Shown here: positions 3,283 to 32,874 of the stretch, in pieces
Numbering within the stretch: the first letter of the stretch is position 1
Layout of the letters: every line of letters starts with the position of its first letter
Source: an uncultured Roseburia sp.
GTDB taxonomy: Bacteria; Bacillota; Clostridia; Lachnospirales; Lachnospiraceae
Assembly (NCBI GenBank): GCA_947088675.1
Contig: CAMUHN010000021.1
Coordinates: 1 to 43,334 of the forward strand
Length of the DNA stretch: 43,334 bases
Direction: 5' to 3'
Notes under the pieces: model-generated
Told to the model about the DNA's origin: nothing
The model's input: the letters and a program-made list of their open reading frames with translations, nothing else
Databases searched by the model: none
Translations under genes and position numbers: made by a program

Positions 3283-3882
3283 TTGACATATGAAGATTTT
3301 TATGGATCCGCTCTGGCAGGACTGATAAAAGCAGAGGCACAGCTGCGAAAAATGATTTCCATTTATTCCGATGAGAATCCGGATCATGCAAAATCTGTGA
3401 TTTATTGCTGTTCCCGTCTGAAATCACCGGAGAGTATGATAGAGAAACTGAAAAAACGCGGGCTGCCGGTGAACAGGCAGGCCGCGCTTTCTCAGGTCTA
3501 CGATGCAGTCGGTATCCGGGTTGTCTGTTCGTTTGCGGAAGATGTCTATCAGGTTGCTGCATGGCTGAAAAGCAGAGCAGAGTTTCGTATCCTCGAAGAG
3601 AAGGATTATATTGCTTATCCAAAACCAAACGGGTATCGAAGCCTGCATCTGCTGCTTCAAATGTCAGAGGGGAACGTGAGCGGAATTTATGCCGAAATTC
3701 AGATTCGCACAATTGCCATTGATTTTTGGGCGGCGCTGGAACACCAGCTTAAGTATAAGAAAGACCTTCCACATGAAGCCATAATCCGGGAAGAATTAAA
3801 ACGATGTGCAGATGAAATTGCTTCGGTAGATCTCACAATGCAGACAATACGTGATATTTTAAAAGAAAGGGACTGTTGTTAA
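3283..3882 (+). CDS. Small alarmone synthetase (GTP pyrophosphokinase, RelA/SpoT domain)
   Basis: This 199-residue single-domain protein is expected to transfer pyrophosphate from ATP to GDP/GTP to make (p)ppGpp. Visible family features are YDAVGIRVVCSF (the family's D-x-x-G-x-R region), YIAYPKPNGYRSLHLLL (substrate loop) and AEIQIRTIAIDFWAALEHQ. There is no HD hydrolase, TGS or ACT domain, so it is a stand-alone synthetase like the YjbM/YwaC group rather than a long Rel protein. The start is TTG at 3283, supported by GGAGG (3270-3274) at 8-base spacing. It follows the kinase gene by 79 bases and may be stress-induced from its own promoter, though none is obvious. No toxin or antitoxin partner is evident beside it. 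Confidence 0.88.
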   Translation: MTYEDFYGSALAGLIKAEAQLRKMISIYSDENPDHAKSVIYCCSRLKSPESMIEKLKKRGLPVNRQAALSQVYDAVGIRVVCSFAEDVYQVAAWLKSRAEFRILEEKDYIAYPKPNGYRSLHLLLQMSEGNVSGIYAEIQIRTIAIDFWAALEHQLKYKKDLPHEAIIREELKRCADEIASVDLTMQTIRDILKERDCC

Positions 3883-4089
3883 ACCGGTGTTCCGTTCCTG
3901 ATTCTTAAGAATAATCCCAGGAACCGGGGGCGGTTTCAATTCGTGGCATTCCATGGCCAACTGTCTGTGGTTTAATGCCCGGTTAGCTGCAGGACGGCCA
4001 TTCCATTTCTTATAAAGTTCCACAATGGCCCGCGTTATTTCGGTATTGTTGTCTGGAAAATATTTCCGTTCGTATCGGGGGGTTGGTAT
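3859..4089 (-). pseudogene. Unrecognised open frame, possible remnant of a gene 3' end
   Basis: The minus strand is open for about 76 codons, reading from just after a TAG (4090-4092) to TAA (3859-3861). It contains protein-like sequence such as YERKYFPDNNTEITRAIVEL and KKWNGRPAANRAL. There is no ATG near its beginning and no ribosome site, and its end overlaps the 3' end of the alarmone synthetase gene by about 24 bases. A balanced amphipathic composition rather than random sequence suggests a decayed C-terminal fragment, possibly of a mobile-element or accessory gene. I cannot name the family. Confidence 0.35.
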
Positions 4090-4359
4090 CTAAAATAATA
4101 AGTTCTGTTCTGCTATCCCTTTCTTGCTGTTGGTTTCTATTTGTCCGCAATCTGTTCCCTGCTTAATTTTTTGATTGTCGTTAAAATCGGGTACATTGAT
4201 ATCACCTATACTGCCCGTTCCAGAAAAGGCCTTTTGCTGCGACCATTCTGGCGACTGCAAAAAAAGCATCTGCCTGTATGGAAAAGCCCGCAAAACAGCG
4301 GGCTTTCTGTTTGTGGTCTTATCGCTGTAAAACTCTGAAACAAAGGATATGATGCGCAA
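4090..4359 (-). pseudogene. Unrecognised minus-strand frame, possibly gene debris
   Basis: This 89-codon frame runs from ATG 4359 to a stop at 4090, in a different frame from the fragment ending at 4089. Its N-terminal part reads through a perfect terminator hairpin (4283-4306), so it is unlikely to be translated as one protein. The second half, from about FLQSPEWSQQ on, is hydrophilic and could be remnant coding sequence. There is no convincing ribosome binding site. Together with the neighbouring fragment it fills a 608-base gap (3883-4490) that holds no intact gene. Confidence 0.25.
4283..4306. terminator. Intrinsic terminator-like hairpin AAAGCCCGC/GCGGGCTTT
   Basis: A perfect 9-bp GC-rich stem (4283-4291 with 4298-4306) has the loop AAAACA and is followed by a T-rich tail TTTCTGTTTGTGG. 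It insulates the downstream NTPase cassette from upstream transcription, or ends transcription of the decayed genes around it. Confidence 0.7.
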
Positions 4360-4378
4360 TTCTGCTTTGTAATTTCGC

Positions 4379-4407
4379 TTGAAATATCAGCGGATATCTT
4401 TTATAAT
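4379..4407 (+). promoter_or_regulatory. Sigma-A type promoter of the membrane protein/NTPase cassette
   Basis: TTGAAA (4379-4384) and TATAAT (4402-4407) are separated by exactly 17 bases. Transcription would start near 4414, about 77 bases before the first gene of the cassette. Confidence 0.75.
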
Positions 4408-4426
4408 TTAATCAACTATTTTTGAA

Positions 4427-4452
4427 GTTTATTTTGCTCGGCAAAAATAAAC
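4427..4452 (+). promoter_or_regulatory. 5'-leader hairpin of the NTPase cassette
   Basis: GTTTATTTTGC (4427-4437) pairs with GCAAAAATAAAC (4441-4452) around a TCG triloop, giving an 11-bp stem with a single bulged A. It lies about 13 bases after the predicted transcription start and 38 bases before the start codon. It is AU-rich and lacks a T tail, so mRNA stabilisation or a protein-binding role is more likely than termination; this is inference. Confidence 0.5.
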
Positions 4453-4490
4453 CAGATCTGTCCGGATCAGGATAAACCGGGAGGTACTGC

Positions 4491-5120
4491 ATGAATCGGA
4501 AAAAAATTTACTTACTGGTTATGATAGCATTATTGATTATATTTATCTGCTGGCTTTTTGCCAGATTAAACGTTTATTCGGTCATTGCGTCTGCACTCGG
4601 TTTGTCAGAAAAGACGGAGGAGCGCATGCCATATACCATTATGCTGTTTGCGATCCTGATTGAAATTGGCGGTTATTTTCTGGCACATCTTACTGAACTG
4701 GCGGAACTGTACTTTAACAGAAAAGACCACAGAGAGGAAACGGCCTGCTGCATCAATATCAGAGTCCTGAATACCACAACGTTAAGAAAAGGGTATAAGC
4801 ATGGTCTGCCGGAGATAGTGATCGGAACCGGCGCTTCGTTTATTTATATTACCGCCTGCATAGAATGTGAAAATATGCATCAGGTCAATATGTGTACGAT
4901 CCGTGATAAAAATATAAAGACAGATTCCGGCTTTTACTTCAGGGTCTGTACGGAGAACGACAGTTTTGAGGATTCCTACACATTACCCATATCATACAAA
5001 GACGATTTCAGGAACCGGCGCTATAGCGGAACGCTTGGGCTGACATTAGTGGATGGGCAGCCGGGCGCCTATGTTAATATTGCAGTAAAACGAGTCCGAA
5101 AACAAAGGAGAACGAAATGA
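4491..5120 (+). CDS. Small two-helix membrane protein, first gene of NTPase cassette
   Basis: This 209-residue protein is not assigned to a known family. It has two strongly hydrophobic helices at about residues 5-25 and 48-68, separated by a short loop (RLNVYSVIASALGLSEKTEE). A soluble C-terminal domain of about 130 residues follows, predicted mostly beta from the alternating hydrophobic pattern (PEIVIGTGASFIYITACIE, YSGTLGLTLVDGQPG), and ends in a basic tail KRVRKQRRTK. GGGAGGT precedes the ATG at good spacing. Its stop overlaps the ATG of the first NTPase (ATGA, 5117-5120), which strongly implies translational coupling and a joint function. It is plausibly a membrane anchor or effector controlled by the NTPases; this is inference. 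Confidence 0.75.
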   Translation: MNRKKIYLLVMIALLIIFICWLFARLNVYSVIASALGLSEKTEERMPYTIMLFAILIEIGGYFLAHLTELAELYFNRKDHREETACCINIRVLNTTTLRKGYKHGLPEIVIGTGASFIYITACIECENMHQVNMCTIRDKNIKTDSGFYFRVCTENDSFEDSYTLPISYKDDFRNRRYSGTLGLTLVDGQPGAYVNIAVKRVRKQRRTK

Positions 5121-7030
5121 CAGAACATGTAATTAAAATTAATCAGGACTATCAGAGAGATTACCGGATTGGGCAAAGTGATTTGTATCATACATTTCAG
5201 AGGCAGTTTGATTATTTATTGGATACCAGGAAAACGGTGAAAACATCGCAGGAGTTTGAAGAAACGTATGTCAATGACGATGAATTTGAAGCGCAGATTG
5301 AAAACTTCCGCAACTCTGCGACAAGTCTGGCCAGATTCTGCACCGGATATACCGGTGTCGGAAAAACCACGGCAATACGGCATTGCTTTGGACTGGGGAT
5401 TGACAATGAGGCTCATACGAATCCGGCAAAGAAAGAACTGATTTTCCCTGTCTTTTTTCAAAGTGATACAATGGAAAATCCGCAGAATTTTGAACTGTAT
5501 CCCTGTATTTCCGCAGTCTGCAGCAAACTGGAGGACAAACACCGGGAACTTCGGGCTCTTTTAAAAAGCCAGGAGGGGAAAAAAGAATTTTTTGATTTTA
5601 TGCGTCGTTTTTCTCCCTATGCGCTGGAATATGTAGACCCGGTTGACGCCATGGATATGAGTGATGAGGAGTTGATACGCAAGAAGCTGCATGGCGCATA
5701 TAAACACCGTCCATTCGAATTTTTCGCAAGCCGGTTAAAATTTTATATTTCAAAAAATTATACGCATTATCAAAAGCTGATTATTATTCTGGACAATCTG
5801 GAAACCTTTCCGGAGGATTTCCAGAAAACCATCATAGGGAAGTTTTTAAAGCTGCAGAACTGTATGCAGAATACGCTTTATCCGGCAAATGGCGCATATG
5901 CCGTACATTTACTGATTTCAATCCGCCCGCACACAAACCGGAATTTAAATAACGACCGTACACTGGAAACGTTTCCTACAAATGAACCAACCATTACAAA
6001 AAAGAAATCCGCTGATCTTGCGCTTGTATTAAAAAAATGTTTTGATTACTGCAGCAGGCGCATTGCAGCCGATGTGACATCCACAGAAGCATATCAGCGA
6101 TTAATGGAACAAAACGCGTGCTTTCCGCAGGAATACGCAGACAGCATCCACAAACTGTGTTGTTTAAATACAAAAAACGCACTTGCCGCCTATGCCCGTA
6201 TTTTTGTAAACCGCTTTTGGGTACAGAATTCGATGGAACAGACAGGAAGAGATTTTGACAGCATCAGCGTCATGCGGGCGCTCGCCTGTAACGAGGAGGA
6301 GGTTTTCTGGGGCGACGCTAAAACGATTATTCCTGATATCCTCCTGACAAAACGGACAGAAGATTTAAGTATCTATTGCCTGCTGATGCTCAAATATTTT
6401 TATCGACAGAAAGGATTTGAAGATTATGGGATGAATGCGGCAAGTGTCAAAACAATCATAAAAGAATTAAACGATATCTTTGATCCCAAAATAACGGACA
6501 AATTTCTTTCCGCAGTCAGATTTCTGTATGCGCAGGGCGTCATCAACAAATCTACCGTATGTTTCGATGACATGAAAGCGCAGGATGCGGATGAGGCGCT
6601 CAGAGAAAACAGTAAATTATATATTTCGCCGAGAGGGAACGAACTCTATGACATGCTTGGGAGAGACAGCGTATATCTGGAAATGCTGCGTGAAAATGCA
6701 TGGCGTGATTATGAAAACAGAGCATTGTATTCCAGATTTTCCAGCCGGGTGCTGATGAATAACGCAAAACAAATCCAGATTTTCAAGGATCTGCTGGAAT
6801 ACATAGACTATCTGCGGGAGACGGAGGAGGATATTCTGATTACGGCAGGCAATGTCGCGAAACAGGAGGAATACAAAAAAATATTTGGCGATAAGCTGGC
6901 TGTAGAGAATCTTCTGGATGGCGTTGAAAATTCACTTAACTATTCCGGCATCATAAATCAGGACGATATGCGCCGGCTGTTAAGAGATGTCAGAGCAAAT
7001 ATAAGCGAAACTCAAAAAAAATTAGTATAG
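5117..7030 (+). CDS. P-loop NTPase A of a tandem paralogous pair
   Basis: This 637-residue protein has a Walker A motif GYTGVGKTT (residues 77-85) followed by IRHCFGLGI, and a Walker B LIIILDN with a following LETFPED (about 221-233). LLISIRPHTNR resembles a sensor region of AAA+/STAND-type ATPases. The C-terminal half contains ALACNEEEVFWGD (388-400), a helical segment, and a winged-helix-like unit ending YISPRGNELYDML (from 502), then a helical tail. No membrane segment or known sensor or effector domain is visible. It overlaps the membrane-protein gene by 4 bases and is followed 11 bases later by its paralogue. Walker B has Asn where the paralogue has Asp. The family is not recognised by name; ATP binding is confident and the role unknown. 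Confidence 0.8.
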   Translation: MTEHVIKINQDYQRDYRIGQSDLYHTFQRQFDYLLDTRKTVKTSQEFEETYVNDDEFEAQIENFRNSATSLARFCTGYTGVGKTTAIRHCFGLGIDNEAHTNPAKKELIFPVFFQSDTMENPQNFELYPCISAVCSKLEDKHRELRALLKSQEGKKEFFDFMRRFSPYALEYVDPVDAMDMSDEELIRKKLHGAYKHRPFEFFASRLKFYISKNYTHYQKLIIILDNLETFPEDFQKTIIGKFLKLQNCMQNTLYPANGAYAVHLLISIRPHTNRNLNNDRTLETFPTNEPTITKKKSADLALVLKKCFDYCSRRIAADVTSTEAYQRLMEQNACFPQEYADSIHKLCCLNTKNALAAYARIFVNRFWVQNSMEQTGRDFDSISVMRALACNEEEVFWGDAKTIIPDILLTKRTEDLSIYCLLMLKYFYRQKGFEDYGMNAASVKTIIKELNDIFDPKITDKFLSAVRFLYAQGVINKSTVCFDDMKAQDADEALRENSKLYISPRGNELYDMLGRDSVYLEMLRENAWRDYENRALYSRFSSRVLMNNAKQIQIFKDLLEYIDYLRETEEDILITAGNVAKQEEYKKIFGDKLAVENLLDGVENSLNYSGIINQDDMRRLLRDVRANISETQKKLV

Positions 7031-7041
7031 GAGACAAAAAT

Positions 7042-8988
7042 ATGCGTATGCTTAAGATTAATAATCGTTTTAAGAGAAAGATAGAATTGGGCGAAAGCGA
7101 TATCTACCGGAAATTCAGCGAACAATTTGATAACCTGTTCAATTCGGATGAAGTCGCAAAAAATAAAACAGAATTTGAAAATATGTATATTCCCGATTCG
7201 GAATTTGAAACACAGATCGACAATTTTCGCAATTCGCTGACACATATGGTAAAATTCTGCGTCGGTTATACCGGTATAGGGAAAACGACTTCCATTCGTC
7301 ATTGCTTTGGCCTTGGTATCAGAAATGAAACAATTTTAAACCCCGATAAAAAAGAGCTGGTATTTCCCACGTTTTTAGACGGCTATCAGATTGCCGATAT
7401 GGAAACATTTAATCTTCCGGCCCGCATCTCATCTGTATGCACAAAACTGGAAGAAGAATATCCGGATTTGCGCGAACTGATGAGCACAGATTCCGGTAAA
7501 ACAGAGTTTTATGATTTTCTAAGAAAACATTCATCCCATATACTTGAAACTGACGAACCCATTGACGAAATGGATTTATCTGTCCATGATCTCACCATAA
7601 AGCGCCTGAAAACTGCTTTTAAAGAAAACCCGTTTGAATTTCAGTCCAACCGCTTAAAATTTTTTATTACAAAGAAGAACACGGATATCAGACGTCTCAT
7701 TATCATTCTGGACGATATCGAGACGCTTCCGGAAGAGTATCAGAAACAGACCATCTGTAATTTCCTGCGGTTCCAGAAATGTATGCAGGACACTGACTTT
7801 TGGGACAATCAGGATTATTTTGTAAATCTTCTGATCTCCGTGCGTCCGCATACCTATCGAATCTTAAACTCCAGCCAGCGAATCTCGGCATTTTCATTCA
7901 GCAGAATTGCTATTATGAAAAAGAATATGCTCGATCTGGACCGTTTTTTTGAAGAAAGATTTCAATATTATACGACAAAAAGCTACCGTGAAATAGGAAA
8001 TATGACAACCTGGACAGACTGCTATCATGAGCTGATGAATATGAACAGAGTTTTTGCAGGGAAATACAAAGAAATGATTCAGGCGCTTTGTTTTTTTAAT
8101 ATTCGCGAGGCGTTGGCATCCTATTCCAAGGTTTTTGCAAACCGTTTCTGGGTGCAGAAAAACAGGTCAAAGGAAAGTATCTTTACCTTATCCTCGCCGG
8201 AATATACGTTTAACAATATCAATGTAATCCGGGCGCTCGCCTGCAACGAGGAAGAGGTATTCTGGGGCGACGGCGATACCGTAATTCCCAATTTATTTTA
8301 TTCGACCGAGAAAGCGGATTTCAGCGTCTACTGCCTGCTCGTCCTGGTCTATTTCGTCAAAAAGGGCGGCTTTGATTCCTACGGAATCAACGCGGAAACG
8401 CTTGGAACAGTAAAAAAAGAATGGGAAGAAATATTCGGAAATAATATTACAAAAAAATTTATCGTAGCGCTCAACTATCTGTTTGAAAAAAGAGTTCTAA
8501 GAAAATCCATCAAAGATATTGACGATATGAAAACGCTGGATAAACCGGAATCGCTGAGCGACAAAAGCAGGCTTTATATCTCGCCGCGCGGAAACGAGCT
8601 GTATGAAATGTTGAGCAGGGACAGCGTACTGCTGGAAATGCTGCGCGAAAGCGCATGGCGTGATTACGAACACAGAAAATACTCGGAGCTTGCCAGCTAT
8701 GAGCTTATGCTTGCATCAAAGCAGATTGAAATATTTAAGGATCTGTACGAATATATTGGTTATCTGTGCGAACAGGAAGAAAATATTCTTGCAACGGTGA
8801 GAACATTAGGACAATTAGATCACTACAGGAGGGTTTTTACAACGAAAGAAAACGAATCCGTTATGTCTGTTTTATTAACAGGCGTAAAAAATTCGCTTGA
8901 TTATTCCGGCATTATTCATCAGGAAAATATGAATGAACAGTTTTTACGGCTAAGAACAAGGATTTGGGGAATTACGGATAAGTTTTAA
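7042..8988 (+). CDS. P-loop NTPase B, paralogue of the preceding gene
   Basis: This 648-residue protein aligns with the preceding one along its whole length, roughly half identical by eye and far higher in blocks. In the block starting at residue 512 (YISPRGNELYEML...) 29 of 34 residues match. Walker A is GYTGIGKTT (75-83), Walker B LIIILDD (219-225) followed by IETLPEE, with a sensor-like LLISVRPHTYR, ALACNEEEVFWGD (398-410) and the same winged-helix-like C-terminus. AGGAGA (7029-7034) lies 7 bases before the ATG. Retention of two diverged full-length copies in one operon argues for a heteromeric complex, not simple redundancy. Not recognised as a named family; a defence or stress-response role is a hypothesis from cassette architecture only. 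Confidence 0.8.
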   Translation: MRMLKINNRFKRKIELGESDIYRKFSEQFDNLFNSDEVAKNKTEFENMYIPDSEFETQIDNFRNSLTHMVKFCVGYTGIGKTTSIRHCFGLGIRNETILNPDKKELVFPTFLDGYQIADMETFNLPARISSVCTKLEEEYPDLRELMSTDSGKTEFYDFLRKHSSHILETDEPIDEMDLSVHDLTIKRLKTAFKENPFEFQSNRLKFFITKKNTDIRRLIIILDDIETLPEEYQKQTICNFLRFQKCMQDTDFWDNQDYFVNLLISVRPHTYRILNSSQRISAFSFSRIAIMKKNMLDLDRFFEERFQYYTTKSYREIGNMTTWTDCYHELMNMNRVFAGKYKEMIQALCFFNIREALASYSKVFANRFWVQKNRSKESIFTLSSPEYTFNNINVIRALACNEEEVFWGDGDTVIPNLFYSTEKADFSVYCLLVLVYFVKKGGFDSYGINAETLGTVKKEWEEIFGNNITKKFIVALNYLFEKRVLRKSIKDIDDMKTLDKPESLSDKSRLYISPRGNELYEMLSRDSVLLEMLRESAWRDYEHRKYSELASYELMLASKQIEIFKDLYEYIGYLCEQEENILATVRTLGQLDHYRRVFTTKENESVMSVLLTGVKNSLDYSGIIHQENMNEQFLRLRTRIWGITDKF

Positions 8989-9061
8989 CGTGATTCCTGT
9001 AAAAGGGGAGTAAATCATCAAAGCTTCGCCGCGTTTGCAAAAAGTTTTTTACATAAAGTAC

Positions 9062-9109
9062 TTGAAAAAAACAAACATACGTGCTATTATAATGTCGAAC
9101 ATAAGTTTG
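9062..9109 (+). promoter_or_regulatory. Promoter with two LexA-like boxes (SOS control)
   Basis: TTGAAA (9062-9067), 17 bases, then TATTAT (9085-9090; an overlapping TATAAT is at 9088-9093). Two sequences match the Gram-positive LexA/DinR box CGAACRNRYGTTYC. CGAACATAAGTTTG (9096-9109) matches 12 of 14 positions just downstream of the -10. CAAACATACGTGCT (9072-9085) matches 11 of 14 between the -35 and -10. Their placement over the promoter core is ideal for repression, and the genes downstream are predicted DNA-repair proteins. Confidence 0.65.
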
Positions 9110-30865: not shown

Positions 30866-30992
30866 CTAAAGTATTTCTAAAAATTGGAAAAAAATGTCAA
30901 ATTTAGTCGATAATGTGATACAATGACAATTGTTCACTGGAGTAAAGCAGAAAAATCGGCAGGAAATACTGGTCTGGGAGGGATGCATTTTG

Positions 30993-32309
30993 ATGAGAAA
31001 GGGGTATGAGGGGAAAAGTGTGTATGATGCGCTGCAGGAGCGTTTTCATTACCTGTTTCATGAGTTTGAAAATATCTATGTTTCATTCAGCGGCGGCAAG
31101 GACAGCGGCGTTTTGCTGAATCTTGTGCTTGATTTTAAGCGCAGATATTATCCGGAACGAAAGATCGGCGTATTTCATCAGGACTTTGAAGCACAGTACA
31201 GCGTGACAACTGAATATGTTACAAGGACGTTCAAAGCGCTGGAGGGAGAGTGCGATCTGTACTGGGTCTGTCTTCCTATGGCGACCAGAACGGCGCTTAG
31301 CAGCTATGAAATGTACTGGTACCCCTGGGACGATAAAAAAGAAGACCTGTGGGTGCGTAAAAGACCGGATTATCCGTATGTGATTACGATCGACAGGCCG
31401 TTTCACCATTATCGCTATCGGATGCATCAGGAGGATCTTGCAAAGCAGTTCGGGCGTTTTTACAAAGAATCGCACAATTATGACAAAACCGTCTGTCTGC
31501 TGGGAATCCGCGCAGATGAGTCGCTGCAGCGGTATAGTGGAATTGTAAACAAAAAATACGGATATAATGGGGAGTGCTGGATTTCAAAGCAGTTTAAGGA
31601 CGTATGGTGCGCCTCGCCGCTCTATGACTGGACCAATCAGGATGTCTGGGTAGCCAATTATCAGTTTCACTATGATTACAATGCCCTGTATGATTTGTAC
31701 TACAAGGCGGGGTTAAAGATTAACCAGATGCGTGTGGCTTCCCCGTTTAATGATTATTCCAAAGACGCTCTCAATCTGTATCGTGTCATTGATCCGGAAA
31801 TATGGACAAGACTTGTGGGGCGCGTCCGGGGTGTGAACTTCGGCTGTATCTATGGAAAGACCAGGGCGATGGGATACCGCAAAATAAAGCTGCCGGAAGG
31901 TCATACATGGGAATCTTACACAAAATTTCTGCTGGATACGCTTCCGGCAAGACTGCGCAATAACTATGTAAAAAAATTTCGGACATCAATTGAGTTCTGG
32001 CATAAGACGGGCGGGGGACTTGATGAGAACGTGATACAGGAACTGCTTGATCACGGATATAACATTCGCAGAAACGGCGTGTCGAATTATACATTGATGA
32101 AACATTCGAGGATTATCTTTCTGGGCGCTATTCCGGACAACACGGATGATATCAAATCTACAAAGGACATCCCGAGTTGGAAGCGGATGTGCTACTGTAT
32201 TTTGAAAAATGACCATATCTGCCGCTTTATGGGGTTTGGTCTGACGCGGCAGGAACAGATGCGAATTGATAAAATCAAAAGAAAATATGGAGGGATGATC
32301 AATGGCTGA
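30993..32309 (+). CDS. PAPS-reductase-fold ATP pyrophosphatase, IbrA-like (DUF3440)
   Basis: This 438-residue protein has the PP-loop SGGKDS at residues 33-38, in FENIYVSFSGGKDSGVLL, which marks an adenine-nucleotide alpha-hydrolase of the PAPS reductase superfamily. Further family features are GIRADESLQRY, WCASPLYDWTNQDVW and NFGCIYGKTRAMGYR. It lacks the C-terminal ECGxH of true sulfate-assimilation reductases, and its partner is a ParB-like protein, so it matches the IbrA/DUF3440 group. The E. coli IbrA-IbrB pair was reported to activate eib immunoglobulin-binding genes; the biochemical activity is unknown. ATG 30993 is 10 bases after GGGAGGG (30976-30982); TTG 30990 is an alternative. A weak promoter (GTCAAA-17-TACAAT, 30896-30924) lies upstream. 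Confidence 0.85.
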   Translation: MRKGYEGKSVYDALQERFHYLFHEFENIYVSFSGGKDSGVLLNLVLDFKRRYYPERKIGVFHQDFEAQYSVTTEYVTRTFKALEGECDLYWVCLPMATRTALSSYEMYWYPWDDKKEDLWVRKRPDYPYVITIDRPFHHYRYRMHQEDLAKQFGRFYKESHNYDKTVCLLGIRADESLQRYSGIVNKKYGYNGECWISKQFKDVWCASPLYDWTNQDVWVANYQFHYDYNALYDLYYKAGLKINQMRVASPFNDYSKDALNLYRVIDPEIWTRLVGRVRGVNFGCIYGKTRAMGYRKIKLPEGHTWESYTKFLLDTLPARLRNNYVKKFRTSIEFWHKTGGGLDENVIQELLDHGYNIRRNGVSNYTLMKHSRIIFLGAIPDNTDDIKSTKDIPSWKRMCYCILKNDHICRFMGFGLTRQEQMRIDKIKRKYGGMING

Positions 32310-32874
32310 AAATATGTTTCAAAGTCCGGTATATAATGTGAAAGCTGTCCCTTTCGAAAAAATAGTGCCAAATTCGTATAATCCGAACGGCGTTGCGCCG
32401 CCGGAGATGAAGCTGCTTTATGACAGTATAAAGGAGGACGGCTATACGATGCCGATCGTGTGCTACTATTCCCAGAAGAAAGATTTATACGCAATTGTGG
32501 ACGGTTTTCACCGCTGGCGCGTGATGAAAGAATATCCCGATATCTACGAGCGCGAGCAGGGGATGATGCCGGTTTCGGTCATAAATAAACCGTTGTCCAA
32601 CCGGATGGCCAGTACGATCCGCCATAATCGTGCCCGCGGTTCCCATAATGTGGATTTGATGAGCAATATTGTAAGGGATCTGCATGAGCTGGGAAGAAGC
32701 GACGCATGGATATCGAAACATCTGGGCATGGATAAGGATGAAATCCTGCGGCTTAAACAGATTACCGGTCTTGCCGCATTATTTAAAGATATCAATTTTG
32801 GTCAGGCATGGAAACCAATTGAGGATCTGGAACGGGAAGAGAAAAAGCAGCCGGAAAGAAAAGAAGGAAAATAA
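32302..32874 (+). CDS. ParB-like nuclease-domain protein, IbrB-like
   Basis: This 190-residue protein has an N-terminal ParB/Srx-fold domain with the nucleotide-binding VDGFHRWRV (the usual GxHR motif), preceded by VPFEKIVPNSYNPN and PIVCYYSQKKDLYAI, and followed by RHNRARGSHN. A helix-turn-helix-like segment covers about 120-160 (DLHELGRSDAWISKHLGMDK). It overlaps the IbrA-like gene by 8 bases and has its own GGAGGG site, so the two are co-translated. It is not a chromosome-partition ParB: too short, no parA and no parS seen. The two probably form one system, possibly for nucleic-acid modification or regulation; this is inference. Confidence 0.85.
   Translation: MAENMFQSPVYNVKAVPFEKIVPNSYNPNGVAPPEMKLLYDSIKEDGYTMPIVCYYSQKKDLYAIVDGFHRWRVMKEYPDIYEREQGMMPVSVINKPLSNRMASTIRHNRARGSHNVDLMSNIVRDLHELGRSDAWISKHLGMDKDEILRLKQITGLAALFKDINFGQAWKPIEDLEREEKKQPERKEGK

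Follow-up and report, generated by a model that had tools for sequence, protein, structure and literature searches.

A patchily distributed family of P-loop NTPases with exchangeable small membrane partners, encoded at a locus of an uncultured Roseburia sp.

We analysed a 43,334-nucleotide stretch of DNA from an uncultured Roseburia sp. (assembly GCA_947088675.1, contig CAMUHN010000021.1, forward strand), referred to here as the window, and focused on an operon that encodes a small membrane protein (open reading frame 1, ORF1) and two related P-loop nucleoside triphosphatases (NTPases; ORF2 and ORF3). The genes and the features around them are as follows:

4491-5120, + strand: ORF1, 209 amino acids, intact; two N-terminal transmembrane helices and a soluble domain
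5117-7030, + strand: ORF2, 637 amino acids, intact; P-loop NTPase
7042-8988, + strand: ORF3, 648 amino acids, intact; paralogue of ORF2
4379-4407, + strand: probable promoter, TTGAAA-17-TATAAT, matching 11 of 12 consensus bases
4283-4306, + strand: terminator-like hairpin upstream of the promoter
3870-9025, no strand: accessory segment, bounded by DNA similarity to the sister species G039

A preliminary description of this DNA had proposed a compact operon in which the gene for a membrane protein with two helices precedes those for a pair of paralogous P-loop NTPases, and our analysis agrees with it on each of these points. The three genes are intact and closely spaced, with an ATGA overlap coupling ORF1 to ORF2 and 11 bases between ORF2 and ORF3, and ORF1 begins with two hydrophobic helices. 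ORF2 and ORF3 are 48% identical, and both contain GYTG(V/I)GKTT, ALACNEEEVFWGD, and YISPRGNELY(D/E)ML. Their Walker A and Walker B motifs are GYTGVGKTT (residue 77) and IIILDNLE (222) in ORF2, and GYTGIGKTT (75) and IIILDDIE (220) in ORF3. Identity between the two proteins, taken in blocks of 40 residues, peaks (0.53-0.62) at the P-loop, the Walker B motif, the CNEEEVFWGD block, and the YISPRGNELY segment.

Whole-genome searches recovered a total of 10 NTPases at nine loci in eight genomes, and this count, like all distribution counts given here, includes the genome of the window. Members share only 16-29% pairwise identity, the window pair excepted, but residues G77, G82, and K83 of Walker A and D226 and E229 of Walker B are invariant in all 10, and R270 after the sensor strand is kept in nine. 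The residue after D226 is variable (G in the L009 member), and about 65-90 residues precede the P-loop. ORF2 and ORF3 each deviate at 16 positions where at least six of the eight other members agree, and both retain the NTPase motifs of the family. We considered faster evolution of ORF2, which has the longer tree branch (0.76 vs. 0.37), yet eight relative-rate tests gave p values of 0.06-0.91 (lowest 0.063) and the idea was dropped. No transmembrane helix was called in either protein (highest 19-residue hydropathy 0.76 for ORF2 and 1.24 for ORF3). The AlphaFold2 model of ORF2, with a mean predicted local distance difference test score (pLDDT) of 35, is too poor to place the fold; its secondary structure suggests a winged-helix-like segment at about residues 414-515, followed by a helical C-terminus. 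For ORF1, the model (mean pLDDT 47) has helices at about residues 3-35 and 42-77 and then a soluble domain of about 130 residues that is probably beta-rich, with scores of 59-83 across the helix block (residues 1-80) and below 50 in the soluble part.

The preliminary description had not recognised this family, and the curated libraries do not name it either. All three proteins fall below the curated cut-offs of Pfam and NCBIfam, and the only PADLOC match among them is a weak one of ORF3 to LmuC (0.0083). Nine NTPase members, with that of genome G1004 left out, gave no convincing PADLOC model, the best being mad8 (E value 1.7e-4). In PHROGs, ORF2 had no match, and one of nine members, other than ORF2, matched phrog_14719 (2.8e-6), which has no assigned function. 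ORF1 had no PADLOC match at E values up to 1 and no match in PHROGs. PDB sequences were searched with ORF1, ORF2, the G1004 member, and two profiles, ORF3 not being used alone; neither ORF2 nor ORF1 (the latter searched at E values up to 10) found anything better than 0.36. Searches with tblastn yielded zero matches against plasmids and phages for ORF2 and the L053 member, against plasmids for the L011, L012, and L052 members, and against phages for the L054 member. Scans of viral contigs with ORF2 and four other members, and two scans of genome contigs, returned no confirmed relative, and among the open-licence PMC papers that our searches turned up, no title or abstract opening described the gene pair. 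The NTPase family is real, rare, patchy, and unnamed in the libraries searched.

The family is sparsely distributed. With ORF2 as the query, four of 145 relatives were matched. Profiles reported at least 26 of 397 genomes in the family sample, at least four of them with full-length members (G000, the genome of the window, G068, G074, and G227), and at least 11 of 291 in the class sample, at least three of them true (G000, G099, and G743). The order sample gave at least three of 392 (G000, G099, and G1004) and the phylum sample at least one of 299, the window's own genome. These samples overlap, and at most four candidates were scored per genome, so the counts are lower bounds; for the family to which G099 belongs, scoring took in almost every candidate, and two of 48 genomes were positive. 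The members from G227, G099, G743, and G1004 scored 193-378 bits before entering the profile, while the other matches in the loci examined reached 27.9 bits at most on local rescoring. We discarded 22 of the 26 family-sample genomes, a second match in G227, and eight of the 11 class-sample genomes as short matches of no more than 27.9 bits; the three of these loci that we inspected, L055-L057, each hold by eye an ABC-F-like ATPase at the match position.

Within the genus, two of 62 genomes carry the NTPase, namely that of the window and G023; we infer that these 62, with completeness as low as 58%, lie within the set of 145 relatives. The G023 copy is 21% identical and lies on a different contig from the radical-SAM gene of G023, and in the tree it is not part of the group, supported at 97/98, in which the window pair is placed (with a long-branch warning). 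Patchiness among relatives, which the preliminary description had named as a point to check, is borne out, and universal vertical inheritance in the genus was not seen. Because so few genomes of the genus carry the gene, in different surroundings and on different branches, the distribution argues against simple vertical inheritance; the gene set is rare and appears to move between genomes. The nearest species, G039, whose radical-SAM protein is 96% identical, gave no NTPase match with ORF2 in a genome that is 90% complete. Its DNA similarity to the window ends at 3869, near the end of a RelA/SpoT-type gene, and restarts at 9026, 37 bases past ORF3. In G039 the two flanks are on separate contigs, the right one beginning near a contig end, and neither an empty site nor an allelic exchange is demonstrable. 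On the left contig (L107, 5420-7954), directly 3' of the RelA/SpoT-type gene and on the opposite strand, lies a gene for an 844-residue SIR2_2 and nSTAND_NTPase5 protein that resembles ThsA (9.9e-14, PADLOC) and stands at the boundary matching the operon of the window.

Seven of the nine loci have a small membrane gene immediately 5' of the NTPase gene, with gaps of -4 bases in the window, 3 in L010, 24 in L011, 123 in L012, 20 in L052, 14 in L053, and 19 in L054. Whether the three genes form a conserved unit has a mixed answer: a membrane gene with one NTPase recurs, but the tandem NTPase pair is found in the window only (the two copies of G068 are at separate loci) and the partner is not one protein. 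In the window, L010, and L011 it is 209-222 residues long, with a pair of hydrophobic segments at the N-terminus and a soluble part at the C-terminus, and no mutual sequence kinship was detected among these three. The partners in L012, L052, L053, and L054 are shorter (112-149 residues) and carry a four-cysteine loop between hydrophobic ends, the C-terminal end in L053 falling under the threshold used. The cysteines align, with similar spacing, in three of these four; in L054 the spacing differs and only the last two align. The L053 partner (G099) is kin to those of L012 and L052 (G068b and G227; phmmer 3e-5 to 5e-4), its kinship with the L054 partner (G743) is marginal (0.008-0.02), and a comparison of the G068a and G099 partners was also marginal (phmmer E value 0.02-0.04), the one score that links ORF1 or the partners of L010 and L011 to the others. 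These four-cysteine proteins are possibly a metal-binding membrane effector family. A single homologous membrane partner at all loci was considered and rejected, as the partner types lack detectable similarity. What we observe is an NTPase core that stays constant while its membrane partner is exchanged, and together with the duplicated switch in the genome of the window this is the strongest new point of our analysis.

To place the NTPases, we compared them with known P-loop groups. Weak Pfam matches among nine members were to AAA_16 and AAA_22 (six of nine each), AAA_14 (three of nine), and ATPase_2, NACHT, NB-ARC, and ABC_tran (two of nine each). The window proteins are below the cut-off (NACHT, 18.8 vs. 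26.7 bits), and of the other eight members only that of G1004 passes one, that of NB-ARC (24.2 vs. 23.5 bits), with a match confined to positions 10-75 of the 248 in the profile, which is the P-loop part. The family resembles STAND NTPases (NACHT, NB-ARC, and Avs-type) in its P-loop, its hhhhD(D/N)hE-type Walker B, its arginine after the sensor strand, and its patchiness, and the winged-helix-like segment that the low-confidence ORF2 model suggests after the NTPase core may be a further likeness. Because the DxxE Walker B is present in all 10 members and the arginine in nine, STAND-like is the best class for the family, an assignment that is not proven and rests partly on weak profile matches. 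A C-terminal repeat sensor and a fused effector are common, though not universal, in STAND NTPases. The present family differs in having no Pfam-detected fused effector or TPR, LRR, or WD40 repeats; its likely effector is instead the product of the separate small membrane gene.

What could such a gene pair do? The reading that we favour, although tentatively and with somewhat less than even confidence, is that of a horizontally exchanged conflict module in which a STAND-like switch NTPase triggers a membrane effector, stopping growth before phage release. It is favoured by the conserved NTPase motifs, the recurrent weak matches to AAA_16, AAA_22, ATPase_2, NACHT, and NB-ARC, the pairing with a membrane gene, the sparse distribution, and the equal number of departures of ORF2 and ORF3 from the family. 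Two published comparisons suggest how such a module might work. Cap15 and OptE combine two helices with a beta-barrel domain and, once triggered, damage the inner membrane (PMC12657218); ORF1 shares this outline without sequence similarity. STAND domains undergo NTP-dependent oligomerisation upon signal sensing, and bacterial members of the class have been proposed to sense phages (PMC9122126). The steps from sensing through oligomerisation to membrane damage, the role in defence, and the heteromer are our inference, as follows. The resting NTPase would hold one nucleotide state, and its helical C-terminal part would probably sense infection or a related disturbance. On sensing, the NTPase would swap its nucleotide and assemble, and the assembly would activate the product of the adjacent upstream membrane gene. 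The two-helix hairpin of this product would then damage or depolarise the membrane, leading to growth arrest before phage release. In the window, the NTPase gene appears to have been duplicated into two diverged copies that keep the family motifs, which suggests either a mixed oligomer or a single effector with two triggers. We take the module to be most likely an abortive-infection type of defence. The preliminary description had inferred a heteromeric ATPase that controls or is anchored by the membrane partner, possibly in phage defence or stress response; this is supported in part, for the family is linked to a membrane gene, patchy, and sometimes near defence or phage genes, while heteromer formation, anchoring, and defence activity are putative. 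That it represents an unnamed two-component conflict class, with one switch NTPase family, interchangeable small membrane effectors of different origin, and a duplicated heteromeric switch here, is possible, but we regard it as doubtful.

Comparison with known systems shows both kinship in design and differences. Like the S-2TMbeta effectors Cap15 of CBASS and OptE of Panoptes (PMC12657218), ORF1 starts with two helices and continues into a soluble domain that is probably beta-rich. The strands that would correspond to the nucleotide-binding beta-barrel are predicted in ORF1 at pLDDT below 50. In contrast to these effectors, ORF1 has no match to an S-2TMbeta family in Pfam, which includes one, at E values up to 1, or to such a protein among PDB sequences at E values up to 10. 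In addition, its operon partner is a P-loop NTPase, and no cyclase gene (CD-NTase or mCpol) was noticed by eye among the ORFs of the window, no profile having been run for one. Tmn and KAP NTPases are membrane-associated P-loop defence proteins, and here too a P-loop NTPase is tied to membrane helices in a putative conflict setting; the helices, however, are on a separate protein, none are called in ORF2 or ORF3, and there is no KAP match in Pfam. SLATT proteins (PMC7159879) are likewise small two-helix predicted effectors beside an NTP-dependent regulator, but ORF1 has no SLATT match at Pfam E values up to 1. Since the pairing of P-loop switches with small membrane effectors is an established theme, for instance in SLATT proteins (PMC7159879), we regard the module as a variation on a known theme rather than a new kind. 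If our reading is true, it would add an NLR-like bacterial immunity family that splits sensor-switch and killing part into two genes and swaps the killing part between loci, and would account for an operon unnamed by Pfam, NCBIfam, and PADLOC. It would also permit tests of how a STAND-like switch activates a membrane partner in trans and of what is gained from a duplicated, non-identical switch.

The gene surroundings lend some colour to this reading. We compared 28 neighbours with PADLOC, eight picked as defence-like and 20 being the nearest remaining. Three match models near full length with E values below 1e-60, namely one PDC-S28, two genes past the L052 NTPase, and two AbiEi, 2.6 and 3.4 kilobases before the L012 NTPase. 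Nine gave partial, generic, or weak matches: a kinase (L052), a PAPS reductase (L053), an ABC transporter (L009), the RelA/SpoT gene of the window (PDC-S33), a helix-turn-helix (HTH) gene (L010), and single proteins of L011, L054, L112, and L012 (the last a NACHT-pentapeptide protein). The L054 copy sits among phage portal, terminase, and exonuclease genes. Nearby defence genes, which the preliminary description had proposed to look for, are thus seen at two loci (PDC-S28 or AbiEi), and one more is among phage genes; 16 of the 28 neighbours had no PADLOC match at 0.001. In L112 (819-7514, G1004), the NTPase has on one side a transposase-like gene, identified by eye, and on the other a fragment of a P-loop gene that matches Nhi/AbiO weakly.

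Several observations weigh against the conflict-module reading. The near-full-length PADLOC matches occur at only two of nine loci, within about 4 kilobases and not adjacent, PDC-S28 is a candidate system, and the neighbour counts, which include eight of 28 chosen as promising and no control neighbourhoods, do not establish enrichment. AbiEi is one half of AbiE. By eye, the neighbours in the window, L010, and L011 are mostly ordinary-looking. No membrane gene was seen upstream in L009 (ORFs of at least 40 amino acids) or L112 (at least 80). As for the class, the L009 member has no P-loop family match in Pfam at E values up to 0.5, that of L011 matches AAA_22 alone (0.11), and hhalign against single NACHT and nSTAND sequences gave NACHT a probability of 42, below the 52 of an ABC transporter. 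Pfam found no repeat-type sensor profile, and no effector profile above cut-off. The strongest PDB sequence match, to Pnkp1 (2.2e-5), covers the P-loop part, and we did not take it as kinship.

We weighed four other explanations. In the first, which we consider unlikely, a membrane-anchored ATPase would block or remodel incoming DNA or a phage process at the membrane, acting by exclusion rather than suicide, with ORF1 as a non-toxic tether. If the membrane protein is no more than an anchor, one would expect interchangeable small partners without detectable similarity between types; in addition, one copy is surrounded by phage genes, and the winged-helix-like segment of the low-confidence model could bind DNA. 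On the other hand, no membrane gene was found at two loci, and a role beyond anchoring is suggested by the size of the soluble domain in ORF1 and by the loop with cysteines in other partners. Less probable again is a maintenance, replication, or transposition ATPase of mobile elements, ORC- or TniB-like, that would bind DNA through its winged helix and be tethered to the membrane. AAA_16, AAA_22, ATPase_2, and TniB are indeed among the weak matches, and some copies have mobile-element or phage surroundings, but no consistent replication or transposition partner gene was noticed, and no element genes were seen by eye at L010 and L011 (13-17 kilobases). A routine accessory role in stress or in the envelope, with no connection to phages, would fit the housekeeping-like neighbours seen by eye in the window, but we find it improbable for a family that is rare, patchy, not simply vertical, and in varied surroundings that include phage and defence genes. 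Least probable is a toxin-antitoxin-like arrangement in which ORF1 is a membrane toxin silenced by the NTPases or by XRE neighbours, as the small two-helix protein in an overlapping operon and the XRE-type gene beside the L009 copy (and, by eye, beside L112 and L011) might suggest, since a simple antitoxin needs no large conserved NTPase motifs and the partner type varies. L009 and L112 both have a divergent XRE-type gene upstream (Pfam HTH for L009, by eye for L112); because HTH genes are also near the L010 and L011 copies, this gene is not a clean alternative to the membrane partner.

At the operon itself, the proposal of a single promoter was upheld in part. The 11-of-12 site ends 83 bases before ORF1, but the region shows no excess over shuffled sequences of promoter-like sites (12 vs. 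13.3) or of terminator-like hairpins (6 vs. 5.2). Between 3800 and 9300 there are two 11-of-12 sites, the second within ORF2 on the minus strand; the narrow promoter pattern occurs at one further position in the whole window (28998). The flanks had been described as gene debris on the left and an SOS operon on the right, and neither label was borne out. On the left, the RelA/SpoT-type gene (3283-3882) seems intact, with 199 amino acids against 198 in its G039 counterpart; the following roughly 500 bases, for which no protein-library search was made, have one other match in the same genome (77 bases at 74%). On the right, a single LexA-like box (9096-9109, one mismatch to the consensus) follows closely on a promoter-like site that belongs to the radical SAM gene; since chance alone predicts 0.8 such sites per window, the SOS label is unsupported.

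Across the window, an Rfam search found no family. The RelA/SpoT-type gene encodes a small, stand-alone synthetase-type protein (Pfam 9.2e-32; partial PADLOC PDC-S33 match, 3.6e-23). Positions 1-307 are a dispersed repeat with at least 37 partial matches in G039 (30 of 114 first-look candidates scored), and this repeat carries an inverted repeat near 124-160. Finally, positions 30930-32874 encode by eye a PAPS-reductase-type protein followed by a ParB-like protein, a putative IbrA/IbrB-like pair.

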